From: Deltaproteobacteria bacterium
GTDB taxonomy: Bacteria; Desulfobacterota; Syntrophobacteria; BM002
Direction of reading: 5' to 3'
Length of the DNA stretch: 60,134 nucleotides
Assembly: GCA_020353155.1 (NCBI GenBank)
Contig: CP070689.1
Location: 965,282 to 1,025,415 of the forward strand
A program made the translations under genes and the position numbers. The notes beneath the pieces were generated by a model, which was not told the DNA's origin, searched no databases, and saw only the letters and a program-made list of their open reading frames with translations. Positions 21,782 to 48,582 of this stretch are shown here, piece after piece (position 1 is the stretch's first letter; the number at the start of each line of letters is the position of its first letter).

Positions 21782-22198
21782 ATGAAAAGAACCATCTCAA
21801 CGCTGCTTAAACTATCAGTTGCAGTGACGTTGCTGGCGGCTTTTTCCTTCAACGGAGTGGCCGGTAGCGCGCCCAGAATTACCAAGGAAGAACTCAAATC
21901 GATGCTGGGTAATGCAAAACTGGTTATTGTTGATGTTCGAAGGAGTAAGGACTGGAACGCCAGTGAGTATAAAATAAAAGATGCCGTCCGGGTTGATCCT
22001 GATCCAAGAAAGGTTGACTCCTGGGCTAGTAGCTATGGTAAAGACAGGACCATCGTTGTCTACTGCGCCTGACCCAACGAACACACCAGTGCCCGTGCGG
22101 TACTGAATCTGATAGATGAGGGATACACCAATGCCTATGCCTTGAAAGGCGGTTGGTACGAATGGTTTCGGGCCAAGTATCCAGTTGAAAAGAAGTAA
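21782..22198 (+). CDS. Exported rhodanese-like selenoprotein with in-frame UGA
   Basis: Reading through the TGA at 22070-22072 (codon 97) gives a continuous 138-residue rhodanese domain behind a signal peptide (LSVAVTLLAAFSFNGVAGSA). The active-site context is IVVYCA-U-PNEHTSARAV, where the UGA lies directly after the usual catalytic-loop Cys. Downstream, VLNLIDEGYTNAYALKGGWYEWF is the normal end of a rhodanese fold, so this is not a truncated gene. Rhodanese-related selenoproteins with this CAU motif are known from Deltaproteobacteria. A strong hairpin follows the UGA. A role in periplasmic sulfur or selenol transfer is inferred. Confidence 0.88.
22087..22105 (+). promoter_or_regulatory. Candidate bacterial SECIS hairpin for UGA at 22070-22072
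   Basis: CAGTGCC-CGTGC-GGTACTG forms a 7 bp stem including one G-U pair, with a 5 nt loop having G at position 2. The loop begins 22 nt after the UGA. Confidence 0.65.
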
Positions 22199-44048: not shown

Positions 44049-44220
44049 GATCGTTGTCCTACCTCCCTTGAAAGTATTGGATGAACTTCTAGCAGAAAAG
44101 AGCTTTCAAATGCCAGCATTAATTTCTATTTTAGCACCACGGGTAGGATTCTTGTTGACAGGACCGATTGGGTAGATAAGCTAGGATGTCCCGAGAAATG
44201 AACTCTTGAGAGGTGGAAAG

Positions 44221-44643
44221 ATGGACCCAAAAGTCAAAGAGGCACTGCGAAAGCAGGTTAGAAAGGAACCTTTCGCCAAGAAGCTAGGACTGAGTTTGAT
44301 CGAGGTTGACGAAGGCTATGCAGTGGTTGAGATGGTTTGCACCGAGGAAATGGAAAACATTTTCCAGATGACTCATGGAGGTGCCATATTCACCTTGATC
44401 GATGAAGCATTCGAAATTTCCTGCAACTCCCACGGAACAGTGGCTGTGGCCCTAAATGTAAACATTACCTACCACCAGGCTCCTTCACCAAACAGCACCC
44501 TCAGGGCAGAAGCCAGGGAAGTCTCAAAGACTCGGAAGACAGGCAACTACTATATTACCGTGCAAGACGATAAGGATAATCTCATTGCTAGCTGCCAGGC
44601 CCTTGCCTACCGAAAAGGGGAGAAACTACCTTTCTTGGAGTAG
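44221..44643 (+). CDS. PaaI-type hotdog-fold thioesterase
   Basis: The ATG at 44221 with GAGAGGTGG gives 140 residues. The hotdog signature is FAKKLGLSLIEVDEGYAVVEM, NIFQMTHGGAIFTLIDEAFE (catalytic HGG...D region) and LNVNITYHQAPSPNSTLRAE. PaaI-like enzymes hydrolyse aryl- or acyl-CoA thioesters; specificity is not defined. Confidence 0.9.
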   Translation: MDPKVKEALRKQVRKEPFAKKLGLSLIEVDEGYAVVEMVCTEEMENIFQMTHGGAIFTLIDEAFEISCNSHGTVAVALNVNITYHQAPSPNSTLRAEAREVSKTRKTGNYYITVQDDKDNLIASCQALAYRKGEKLPFLE

Positions 44644-44816: not shown

Positions 44817-44988
44817 AGACTAGCAACGAGATGGGGATTGGGATTTTTCTATTCACTGCTCTGTTTGACAAGGTCTGACTTAGAACGGATGCCCTGTCAC
44901 CGTCATCAAGAGGCGACGGCTTCTTTTTGTGCATGCTACTGGAAAAACTTCGATTTTAGTAGATATGAACAGTCCTTGAGGTATGCCC

Positions 44989-46758
44989 ATGGGGAGAAGA
45001 GTTTGCTGCCTACAGGTGCTAAAGACAGCAATGATGGTCTCTCTGTCAGTAACCATTTTAGCTCTGTCAAGACCTGCATACCCTGGTGCCGAGCTTCGCA
45101 CCCAACAGCTAGCCCAGGTTCAAGAGGATGCCAGGAGGGGAAATTACAAGCTCATCACGCCAGAGTCCATGAGAGAAGGATATCTCAAGAATTTCTCCTC
45201 CTTCCTTCTAGTAGATACCCGCCAGGACTGGGAGTACCAGCAAGAGCACATTCAAGGGGCGGTGAATCTTCCGATTAGGCCCACCTGGTGGAGCCAGTAT
45301 TCTCCCTGGGTCCGCTCGGCGATGAGAAAGCTGCTCGGACCTGACAAGAAGCAGAGCGTGGTATTTTACTGAGACGGCCTCACCTGAGTCCGCAGTGACT
45401 CGGCGGCTAGGTTGGCCGTTAAACTCGGTTACCAAAAGGTCTATCGCTATGCTGAGGGCCTTCCCCAGTGGAAAGATATGGGGCTGCCCACAGTAAAAGG
45501 ACAAATCTCCCTGACGCAGTCATCAGGAATCGGTTCGCCAGGTTCGGCACTTTTTCAGTCAGGCCTACTTCTTACTATTGTGGGAGTCTTTTTTGGCGGC
45601 CTTGCTCTCAACCTTACTCCCTGTGTCTATCCGTTAATTCCCATTACCGTTTCCTATTTCGGTGGAAGGGGCGCGAACAAAGCCGGCCTTCTAGCTGTTC
45701 ATAGCCTGCTCTATCTTCTCGGCCTCGCCATCACCAACTCAAGCCTAGGGGTGGTAGCTGCATTTACCGGTGGACTACTAGGTGCGGTACTTCAGCACCC
45801 GGCAGTGCTCATAGGTATTAGTGTCATTTTGCTAGGTCTTGCCCTGAGCTTTTTCGGCCTTTGGGAGCTCAAGCTACCAGGTTTTCTGACCCAGGCCGCA
45901 TCGAGGTCCTATGGTGGTTATGGTGGTAGCCTTTTTATGGGGTTTACCCTGGGAGTGGTAGCTGCACCCTGTATAGGCCCGTTTCTCCTCGGGCTGCTGA
46001 CTTACGTGGCCAGCACCGGTAATCCTTATCTGGGATTCATCCTCTTCTTTACCTTGAGCCTGGGCCTGGGCATTCCTCTCTCTACTTTGGCCCTTTTTTC
46101 CGGCAGATTGGATAGGCTGCCCCGCTCGGGGGAATGGATGATATGGGTGCGAAAACTCTTTGGCTGGGTACTTGTGGCCATGGCCGCTCACTTCATCAAA
46201 CCGCTGTTTCATGGACACTCGGCAGGAATGATCGTATTCGGTGTGGTCATTATGGCGGCAGGAGTTCACCTTGGCTTCCTAGATCGGACAACGGGCACTT
46301 TCCGCGGTTTTGGCTGGCTGAAAAAGGGGATCGGTACAGCTTTCATCTTGCTGGCGGCCTATCAGATCGTCTCTGCGGTCACCATGGGCCCGGGCATTGT
46401 CTGGCGGCCCTACTCTGAGCAACTCCTAAAGAAAGCAATCAGCATGAAAAAGCCGGTTATAATGGACTTCTATGCAGACTGGTGCGCTCCGTGCCAAGAA
46501 CTGGAGCAAATAACTTTTCACCATCCTGAAATTATGAAGCTGGCAGAGAATGACTTTGTCATGATCAAAGTCGACCTAACCCGTAAGGGCAATCCGATTA
46601 ATGAGAATCTCCTGCGACAATATAATGTCAGAGGGGTTCCTACGGTGGTGTTTTTAGACGGACAAGGCAGGGAGCGGAAGGACTTACGGGTGGTAAATTT
46701 CTTGCCCCCCGACCAGTTTATAAAGCACATGACAATTCTCAATAAAGGCAATTCCTAG
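44989..46758 (+). CDS. Rhodanese-DsbD-thioredoxin fusion selenoprotein with two in-frame UGA codons
   Basis: The ATG at 44989 has GAGG seven bases upstream. Reading through TGA at 45370-45372 (codon 128) and 45385-45387 (codon 133) gives 589 residues. Order: signal peptide; periplasmic rhodanese domain (LITPESMREGYLKNFSSFLL, VDTRQDWEYQQEHIQGAVN) with active site VVFY-U-DGLT-U-VRSDSAARLAV; DsbD/CcdA membrane domain with Cys in LNLTPCVYPLIPI and VVAAPCIGPFLLG; C-terminal thioredoxin domain with FYADWCAPCQELE. DsbD moves electrons from cytoplasmic thioredoxin to the periplasm, so this protein probably delivers them to its own rhodanese selenols. Gene callers will report two broken ORFs. Both UGAs have plausible SECIS hairpins, and the frame between and after them stays rhodanese-like. 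Confidence 0.88.
45386..45401 (+). promoter_or_regulatory. Candidate SECIS hairpin for the first UGA (45370-45372)
   Basis: GAGTC-CGCAGT-GACTC is a perfect 5 bp stem, extendable by a U-G and a C-G pair, with a 6 nt loop having G at position 2. The loop begins 19 nt after the first UGA. The second UGA lies in its 5' arm. Confidence 0.6.
45401..45418 (+). promoter_or_regulatory. Candidate SECIS hairpin for the second UGA (45385-45387)
   Basis: CGGC-GGCTAGGTTG-GCCG has a 4 bp GC stem and a 10 nt loop starting with GG, 18 nt after the second UGA. Weaker than the first hairpin and partly exclusive with it at base 45401. Confidence 0.4.
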
Positions 46759-46771
46759 AATGGAGAAGAGC

Positions 46772-47086
46772 ATGCTGAGAGTAAGATTTTTTATGAACGA
46801 GCCCAATGGTAAGCCGTGAAAACATTTCAAGGAGATGATGCCCAGGTTGGGCCAGAAGTACGAAATTGAAATTGAAACCATATCCAAGCCCAAAGCAGAA
46901 TACCAAACAGATGAGTATTTTGAGTTGGATCTGCCGGTGGCGCCGGCTGTGATGGTGGGCGAGGAAATAGTAGTTGAAGGAACTGACGTCTCCGAGGACA
47001 AACTTGAAACTGCCATTTGCCAACACCTGGGAATTCCCACCCCAGAGCCGCGAAAGAAAAAAATACGCGAGCGGCTATTCAAATAG
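46772..47086 (+). CDS. Small thioredoxin-like selenoprotein with in-frame UGA
   Basis: The ATG at 46772 follows GGAGAAGAGC, 13 bp after the fusion gene ends. Reading through TGA at 46817-46819 (codon 16) gives 104 residues: LRVRFFMNEPNGKP-U-KHFKEMM, then YEIEIETISKP, LDLPVAPAVMVGEEIVVEGT and VSEDKLETAICQHLGI. The beta-alpha-beta start with a reactive residue after the first strand, a cis-Pro-like VAPAVMV and a C-terminal helix are thioredoxin/glutaredoxin-like. Only one selenocysteine and no resolving Cys next to it. I recall no characterised family; it likely works with the fusion protein. Confidence 0.82.
46840..46852 (+). promoter_or_regulatory. Candidate SECIS hairpin for UGA at 46817-46819
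   Basis: GCCCA-GGT-TGGGC is a perfect 5 bp stem with a GG-containing loop that begins 26 nt after the UGA. Confidence 0.6.
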
Positions 47087-47243: not shown

Positions 47244-47337
47244 AGTGTAAATGTTCACATTCCTTTGAAGCCATGGATCTCTGGCCAAATGAGATGGGCA
47301 ACCATGCCTGATGAATCATTTAGAGGGGTTAAGATTC

Positions 47338-48039
47338 ATGCGAGTCTTCCTGATTGCCACAGCTCTAGCTTGCATTTTTCTTAATTTATTTCCCCCCGCT
47401 GATCTCTTTGGGGCCTCACCTGAAATCCGTTTTGAGGAGGATGTCTTCACCTTTAAGCCCCTTTTGGAGGGCGAATCCGTTGATATTAACTTTGAATTTA
47501 GCAATGAAGGTGGGGGAACCCTGGTGATCCATGACGCGGTGACCTCCTGTGGTTGCATTACTGCAGACTACCCAAACCATCCCTTAAAGCCGGGAGAGAG
47601 AGGCACGATCAAGACCACATTTCACTCCAAGGGGCACGGCGGGGACAATGACATCAGTTTGCTGGTCAAGAGCAACGACCCCCTTGTGCCAGTGAAACCA
47701 CTGCGGATACGAGGTAAGGTGATCCGACAATGGCAGGTTCATCCTGGTCGATTCATTTTGACCAACCTGAAGCTAAATCGTAGGTACACTCGAAGGCTGC
47801 AGATAACCAACTTCATGGAAAAATCACTAGAGATAAAAGAGTTGGTCGCTGGGAACCCGCACATCTACCTTCTCTCTGAACCAAAGCGAGTGGCTCCCAA
47901 AGGGGATGATGTAATTGATTTTGAAGTGTGCGTTAAGGATCTCAAGGTTGGAGGAATTGCCCAGTCATCCATTCGAATCGAGGTTGCCAATGCCGAGATG
48001 CAATCGGTCGAGATTCCAATACTAATGAAACTCAAATGA
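47338..48039 (+). CDS. Exported DUF1573 protein
   Basis: From the ATG at 47338 (GAGGGG site) the 233-residue protein has a signal peptide (VFLIATALACIFLNLFPPAD) and an Ig-like DUF1573 domain: VDINFEFSNEGGGTLVI, the family motif TSCGCITADYP and LKPGERGTIKTTFHSKG, with a second beta domain at the C-terminus. DUF1573 proteins are periplasmic and often occur with thiol redox proteins; function unknown. It heads an operon with the rhodanese lipoprotein 21 bp downstream. Confidence 0.85.
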   Translation: MRVFLIATALACIFLNLFPPADLFGASPEIRFEEDVFTFKPLLEGESVDINFEFSNEGGGTLVIHDAVTSCGCITADYPNHPLKPGERGTIKTTFHSKGHGGDNDISLLVKSNDPLVPVKPLRIRGKVIRQWQVHPGRFILTNLKLNRRYTRRLQITNFMEKSLEIKELVAGNPHIYLLSEPKRVAPKGDDVIDFEVCVKDLKVGGIAQSSIRIEVANAEMQSVEIPILMKLK

Positions 48040-48060: not shown

Positions 48061-48582
48061 ATGCGAAATATTGCAGTGTTTTTCTGGTTGGTTGTTGTAG
48101 CTTTGTGGTTGTCTCTACTTTCCGCGTGCGATAATGCGCAGAAGGTGGGCGTGAGCCAGGCCAACGTTCAAAGTGAATTTCTAGCGATGAAAGTAGCTAG
48201 CGAAAAAGAACGGGGCGATTACGAGTTGATTAGTCTAGGGGATTTGAAGGAAAAATTGGACGCCAAGGAGGATATTCTTGTTATAGACACCATGCCCTAT
48301 GAGGCCAGCTACAAAAAGCAGCACATTCCAACGGCGGTGCAGTTCGAGTTCCCAGTTGCCGAGATGACAACAATTGATCCTGAAATGAAAAGGCAATACC
48401 AGGAATTACTAGGGCCGAACAAAGATAAAATGATTGTAGTTTACTGCGGTTATGTCAAGTGTGGGCGGAGCCACAACGGTGCCATGTGGGCTGTAAAGCT
48501 TGGTTACACAAATGTCTACCGCTGTCTCGGGGGTATATTCGGTTGGAAGGAGGCCGGGTATCCAGTGGAGGCCGCTACATAA
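48061..48582 (+). CDS. Rhodanese-like lipoprotein with CxxxxC active site
   Basis: The 173-residue protein has a lipoprotein signal (LWLSLLSAC, lipid-modified Cys near residue 23) and a rhodanese domain: DYELISLGDLKEKLDAKEDI, VIDTMPYEASYKKQHIPTAV and active site IVVYCGYVKCGRSHNGAMWAVKLGY. The two Cys (C-x4-C) align exactly with the two selenocysteines of the fusion protein at 44989-46758, and the flanking AVKLGYxxVYR is shared. It is therefore the Cys paralogue, probably membrane-tethered in the periplasm and an electron or sulfur partner of that system. Confidence 0.88.
   Translation: MRNIAVFFWLVVVALWLSLLSACDNAQKVGVSQANVQSEFLAMKVASEKERGDYELISLGDLKEKLDAKEDILVIDTMPYEASYKKQHIPTAVQFEFPVAEMTTIDPEMKRQYQELLGPNKDKMIVVYCGYVKCGRSHNGAMWAVKLGYTNVYRCLGGIFGWKEAGYPVEAAT

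Follow-up and report, generated by a model that had tools for sequence, protein, structure and literature searches.

A tsoB-family rhodanese-DsbD-thioredoxin gene with two closely spaced UGA codons and a covarying SECIS-like hairpin in a member of the Syntrophobacteria

In a Deltaproteobacteria bacterium assigned to the Syntrophobacteria (BM002; GCA_020353155.1, contig CP070689.1), a reading frame that crosses two TGA codons and joins a rhodanese domain to a DsbD membrane domain and a thioredoxin domain raises the questions of how these codons are decoded and what the product does. The stretch of DNA analysed, hereafter the window, comprises 60,134 nucleotides. The frame from 44989 to 46758 contains exactly two internal stop codons, both TGA (45370-45372, residue 128, and 45385-45387, residue 133), and neither TAA nor TAG before its end; an ATG at 44983, six bases upstream, is as possible a start as 44989. 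Both the coordinates and the domain order given in the initial annotation (rhodanese, DsbD, CxxC thioredoxin) were confirmed by frame reading and Pfam, including a Thioredoxin_2 match at residues 486-580 (2.3e-14). The features of the locus are as follows.

44206..44643, + strand: PaaI-like hotdog thioesterase upstream of tsoB, in the same place in two congeners (three genomes in all)
44989..46758, + strand: predicted tsoB coding sequence with two UGA codons read through (ORF reading; NF045694, 872 bits)
45202..45477, + strand: rhodanese domain, residues 72-163, spanning both TGA sites (PF00581, 1.7e-15)
45370..45372, + strand: UGA 1, predicted Sec128, at the catalytic-cysteine position of the rhodanese (PspE-type alignment; TGA in 85/85 homologues)
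45385..45387, + strand: UGA 2, predicted Sec133, completing the U-x4-U pair (TGA in 85/85 homologues)
45385..45402, + strand: hairpin 1, TGAGUC-CGNAGY-GACUCG (92% of cells paired, almost no covariation)
45403..45419, + strand: hairpin 2, SECIS-like, GCGGCY-(C/A)G(G/U)NU-GGCCGU (98.6% of cells paired; inside the most constrained synonymous window)
45571..46206, + strand: DsbD/CcdA membrane domain (DsbD_TM), residues 195-406 (PF02683, 2.9e-45), with the Cys pair C212 (NLTPC) and C328 (AAPC), both invariant (n=73 sequences)
46402..46728, + strand: C-terminal thioredoxin domain with WCAPC (C499, C502; PF13098/PF13899)
46760..47086, + strand: tsoC, NEPxGxxU selenoprotein and next gene after tsoB, UGA at 46817-46819 (U20; NF045708, 160 bits, cut-off 45)
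47311..48039, + strand: DUF1573 protein, all-Cys, OS_HP2-like (PF07610; NF041425, 62.7 bits, below the cut-off of 100)
48061..48582, + strand: stand-alone, lipoprotein-like rhodanese whose corresponding loop has C-x4-C (TsoB model, 93.5 bits)

Judged by its match to the NCBIfam model NF045694 (seleno_TsoB; cut-off 805; residues 14-582 against model positions 7-569 of 572), the gene is almost certainly tsoB and its product a member of the TsoB family; the DsbD model PRK00293 gave 253.9 bits, below its cut-off of 330. A 2026 review (PMC13188914) includes TsoB, a rhodanese/DsbD fusion-like selenoprotein, gives its motif as UxxxxU with two Sec residues, and credits the definition of the family to Haft & Tolstoy 2025. 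The view that this double-Sec fusion was uncharacterised therefore stands in one respect, as no experiment on TsoB was found in the literature covered; it falls in another, since the family has already been defined and named in NF045694 and the review, so that the suspected novelty was in the literature before. A search for literature on a Cys-type rhodanese-DsbD persulfide reductase returned nothing relevant. As far as we can tell, the points apparently new here are the compensatory changes that support the RNA element, the absence of tsoA from the locus, and a C-x4-U rhodanese for which no NCBIfam model scores above cut-off.

The decoding of the two TGA codons was approached through homologues. 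When 60 related genomes, among them the genome under study, were searched with read-through allowed, the rhodanese-DsbD fusion was recovered in 12 of them (again including its own), each time with exactly two TGA codons inside. These loci were pooled with 80 loci returned by a scan of GTDB species genomes, a few of the pooled loci possibly representing one genome counted twice via two collections. All 85 sequences that contain the rhodanese part carry TGA at both aligned sites, and Cys, TAA or TAG was found at neither site in any of these 85; as the scan patterns had Cys at the UGA sites (or used the DsbD motif), the search was not biased toward TGA. The initial annotation had named other stop codons at these sites, or the lack of aligned Cys or Sec, as signs against its reading, and the homologues speak for it on both counts: Cys and Sec occur at the aligned positions in stand-alone rhodanese relatives with the same loop, most of which have C-x4-C and three of which, in congeners, have C-x4-U, and no Cys version was found among the full-length fusions. 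The presence of CC and CU at the positions of U128 and U133 indicates that what is conserved in the pair is its redox character. Purifying selection, measured against congeners, acts before, between and after the TGA codons (dN/dS about 0.09-0.21). The genome also possesses all four components of the selenocysteine machinery whose presence was to be confirmed, i.e. selA (617 bits), selB (390 bits), tRNA-Sec (selC; 75.2 bits, gathering score 47) and selD (375 bits). Taken together, the sequence data indicate that U128 and U133 are very probably both decoded as Sec with the aid of SelB and tRNA-Sec.

At the protein level, alignment places U128 where PspE-type rhodaneses have their catalytic Cys; the active-site loop is two residues longer in TsoB, and U133 falls within this extension. 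Along with C212, C328, C499 and C502, U128 and U133 are invariant in 73 sequences. An AlphaFold2 model built from these 73 sequences places a strand (123-127) before the loop with U128 and U133 and a helix (135-145) behind it; its confidence is moderate (pLDDT 76.6, pTM 0.54), so the geometry between domains carries no evidential weight. With Foldseek, the C-terminal domain matched DsbD gamma (1uc7, the best PDB match), and the matches of the rhodanese domain include PspE and the Wolinella polysulfide-sulfur transferase Sud.

The most constrained synonymous stretch of tsoB begins immediately ahead of UGA 1 and ends 16 codons past it, and none of 20000 random samples was as low (0/20000) in a test restricted to aligned codons with a conserved amino acid; within it, V134 is most often encoded by GTC (72 sequences) and D137 by GAC (75 versus 2 with GAT). 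Hairpin 2, which lies within this stretch, shows 36 two-sided compensatory cells over its whole length. Two of its pairs, Ala139/Ala143 and Ala140/Val142, join third codon positions that are synonymous; they change jointly from GC to AT or CG and from CG to TA, with 9 and 6 double changes, about 15 independent events when counted on the protein tree. The loop (C/A)G(G/U)NU is kept in nearly all sequences, with G at its second position in 84/85. Bacterial SECIS elements have been described as having a loop of 3-9 nt, a stem of at least 4 bp, a G at loop position 1 or 2 and a distance of 16-37 nt from UGA to loop (PMC13188914). With a 5-nt loop, 6 bp, and UGA-to-loop distances of 21 nt for UGA 2 and 36 nt for UGA 1, hairpin 2 falls within these rules for both codons, so that the search for a SECIS proposed in the initial annotation yielded an element backed by both these rules and compensatory changes. 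The loop of hairpin 1 is located 18 nt behind UGA 1, and UGA 2 forms part of its 5' arm; G[G/U] is not kept in this loop, and the hairpin varies too little to show covariation. Hairpin 1, which is conserved, may be regarded as a candidate for a separate SECIS serving UGA 1.

In most tso loci the order of genes is tsoA, tsoB and tsoC, sometimes with a second tsoC, and the ArsR/SmtB-type regulator TsoR (NF045707) is often encoded upstream. At the locus studied here, tsoC directly follows tsoB; TsoA gave no match in the genome or in nine congeners, tsoR is not adjacent to tsoB in the window, and the TsoX model gave no match in the genome, nor in any control. The rhodanese encoded at 48061..48582 is the all-Cys counterpart of the TsoB N-terminal domain. 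Two variants were observed elsewhere. In congener G005 (L143, 7799-8666), tsoB is cut to about its last 180 residues and tsoC is intact with its UGA; either the rhodanese-DsbD part was lost recently or the assembly is damaged here. At L098:2458-2883, TsoA has Arg (LRL) instead of Sec, next to an otherwise normal tsoB and tsoC.

Further selenoprotein genes were noticed in the same genome and its relatives. The selD gene (G000:C1:192680-193603) itself carries one in-frame TGA, so SelD is likely a selenoprotein too, and a Cys rhodanese (YCDGANC) is encoded just downstream of it. The window contains a gene for an IscA/HesB family protein (1299-1607, - strand; TGA at 1506-1508, QIGUGG; NF038090 IscA_HesB_Se, 121 bits, cut-off 85) and a second rhodanese selenoprotein gene (21782-22198, + strand; TGA at 22070, YCAU, signal-like N-terminus; NF041203, 174.9 bits, cut-off 115). 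The C-x4-U rhodaneses of the three congeners (YCRSFRULRS; L165:2368, L166:2961 and L167:2395) differ in their surroundings: the one at L167 is fused to an AhpC/TSA-type domain, and L165 looks alike, and those at L166 and L167 lie near genes for molybdopterin-oxidoreductase, ferredoxin-type and membrane-subunit-like proteins; the reading of these ORFs suggests subunits of a molybdopterin reductase of the polysulfide/thiosulfate type. No NCBIfam model scores above cut-off for the C-x4-U rhodanese part, and the motif is absent from the rhodanese forms seen in the review (PMC13188914); it is possibly an unlisted selenoprotein family.

In DsbD, electrons pass from cytoplasmic thioredoxin via a membrane Cys pair to an outward-facing thioredoxin domain. 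For TsoB, a path from the DsbD domain through the thioredoxin domain to the rhodanese is likely. Cytoplasmic thioredoxin would reduce the membrane pair C212/C328, which would then reduce the outward thioredoxin domain (C499/C502), and this domain would reduce the U128-U133 diselenide, or an Se-S intermediate, in the fused rhodanese, the latter standing in for DsbD alpha as terminal carrier and enzyme at once. U128 would accept sulfane sulfur from periplasmic polysulfide, persulfide or thiosulfate; U133 would attack the sulfur bound to U128, upon which sulfide would be released, the diselenide closed and the cycle restarted. Such an accept-resolve-reduce cycle fits with two U residues sharing one loop of the rhodanese, and TsoB as a periplasmic sulfane-sulfur reductase is plausible. 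The domain type makes sulfane sulfur itself a serious candidate for the substrate, if not quite a probable one: the fold, the resemblance to Sud and PspE and the C-x4-U relative near genes resembling those of polysulfide/thiosulfate-type reductases are consistent with it, and the ArsR/SmtB type of TsoR, to which a metal or metalloid role would also fit, counts against it. As the best explanation overall we favour, with reasonable though not high confidence, a selenoprotein of the tso system in which both UGA codons are read as Sec and a diselenol rhodanese reduces sulfane sulfur via DsbD. If this mechanism is right, TsoB would feed reducing power from the cytoplasm to a diselenol sulfurtransferase located outside it. 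Only tentatively do we extend it to a scheme in which one compact RNA region decodes UGA codons 15 nt apart, either with hairpin 2 serving both or with tandem hairpins in which UGA 2 sits in the first stem and UGA 1 is decoded before UGA 2 unfolds, the product being a DsbD-driven, diselenide-cycling sulfane-sulfur reductase. Two closely spaced UGA codons followed by one covarying hairpin offer a clean test of the way in which adjacent Sec codons are served by a bacterial SECIS, and since predicted Sec occupies both sites in all homologues found and Cys is present in stand-alone relatives, the system tests directly what is gained by selenium.

Other substrates have to be weighed against sulfane sulfur. 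TsoB could instead reduce other thiols or selenols outside the cytoplasm, or peroxides, as a hub like DsbD/ScsB in which the rhodanese has become a mere disulfide/diselenide carrier in place of DsbD alpha; the DsbD order of domains is kept with only the N-terminal carrier domain swapped, and the DsbD-type and CxxC cysteines are all retained. Against such a role, the rhodanese fold, along with the strand and loop of its active site and numerous rhodanese positions, is conserved seemingly beyond the needs of a carrier, and no peroxidase domain is fused; the peroxide function suggested in the initial annotation found no specific support here. We consider this alternative conceivable but rather improbable. 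Less likely still is the reduction of a metal or metalloid species (arsenate, selenite, tellurite, mercury) by the diselenol rhodanese, which would make tso a metal(loid) response system. The ArsR/SmtB-type TsoR encoded upstream of tsoA in many operons, a VTT/TVP38 membrane protein recurring beside tso at 20 loci and weak matches to CDC25-like rhodanese-fold enzymes agree with this idea, but no Cys column is common to half of 34 TsoR sequences, which makes a thiol metal site unlikely, and neither a metal transporter nor an arsenic gene is prominent among the recurrent neighbours. That the TGA codons are ordinary stops of a decayed or split gene, or code for a different amino acid (Trp, for example), is extremely improbable and was rejected: a standard gene caller would end there and G005 has a truncated tsoB, but the unanimous TGA at both sites, the purifying selection that acts on either side of them, the Cys residues that stand-alone homologues have at these positions, the presence of selA-D and the covariation of the hairpin contradict it.

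Compared with known systems, the protein agrees with TsoB as modelled in NF045694 in the order of domains, the two Sec residues in UxxxxU, a score above the cut-off and the adjoining TsoC. The locus differs from the usual ones in that tsoR and tsoA are missing, tsoA even from the genus, and in that a PaaI-like gene is found upstream and genes for a DUF1573 protein and a rhodanese lipoprotein downstream. The LYCAU rhodanese (NF041203, form 3, CxU) likewise has Sec in the active-site loop of a rhodanese domain, but its motif is C-x-U rather than U-x4-U, it is not fused to DsbD, and TsoB reaches only 26.9 bits with its model (cut-off 115). The periplasmic rhodaneses PspE and Wolinella Sud share the fold and the position of the catalytic residue with TsoB, whereas they have Cys for Sec and no membrane domain, the loop of PspE also being shorter and without a second redox residue. 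Relatives of the DsbD-thioredoxin half that have neither rhodanese nor TGA were observed at L013-L018, L130-L132, L136 and L138, and neither tsoA nor tsoC was found next to L130-L132, L136 or L138; these relatives possibly represent an ancestor or a separate lineage. DsbD and ScsB have the membrane domain and the C-terminal thioredoxin in common with TsoB, in which their N-terminal, immunoglobulin-like DsbD alpha domain is replaced by the rhodanese with its predicted Sec residues.
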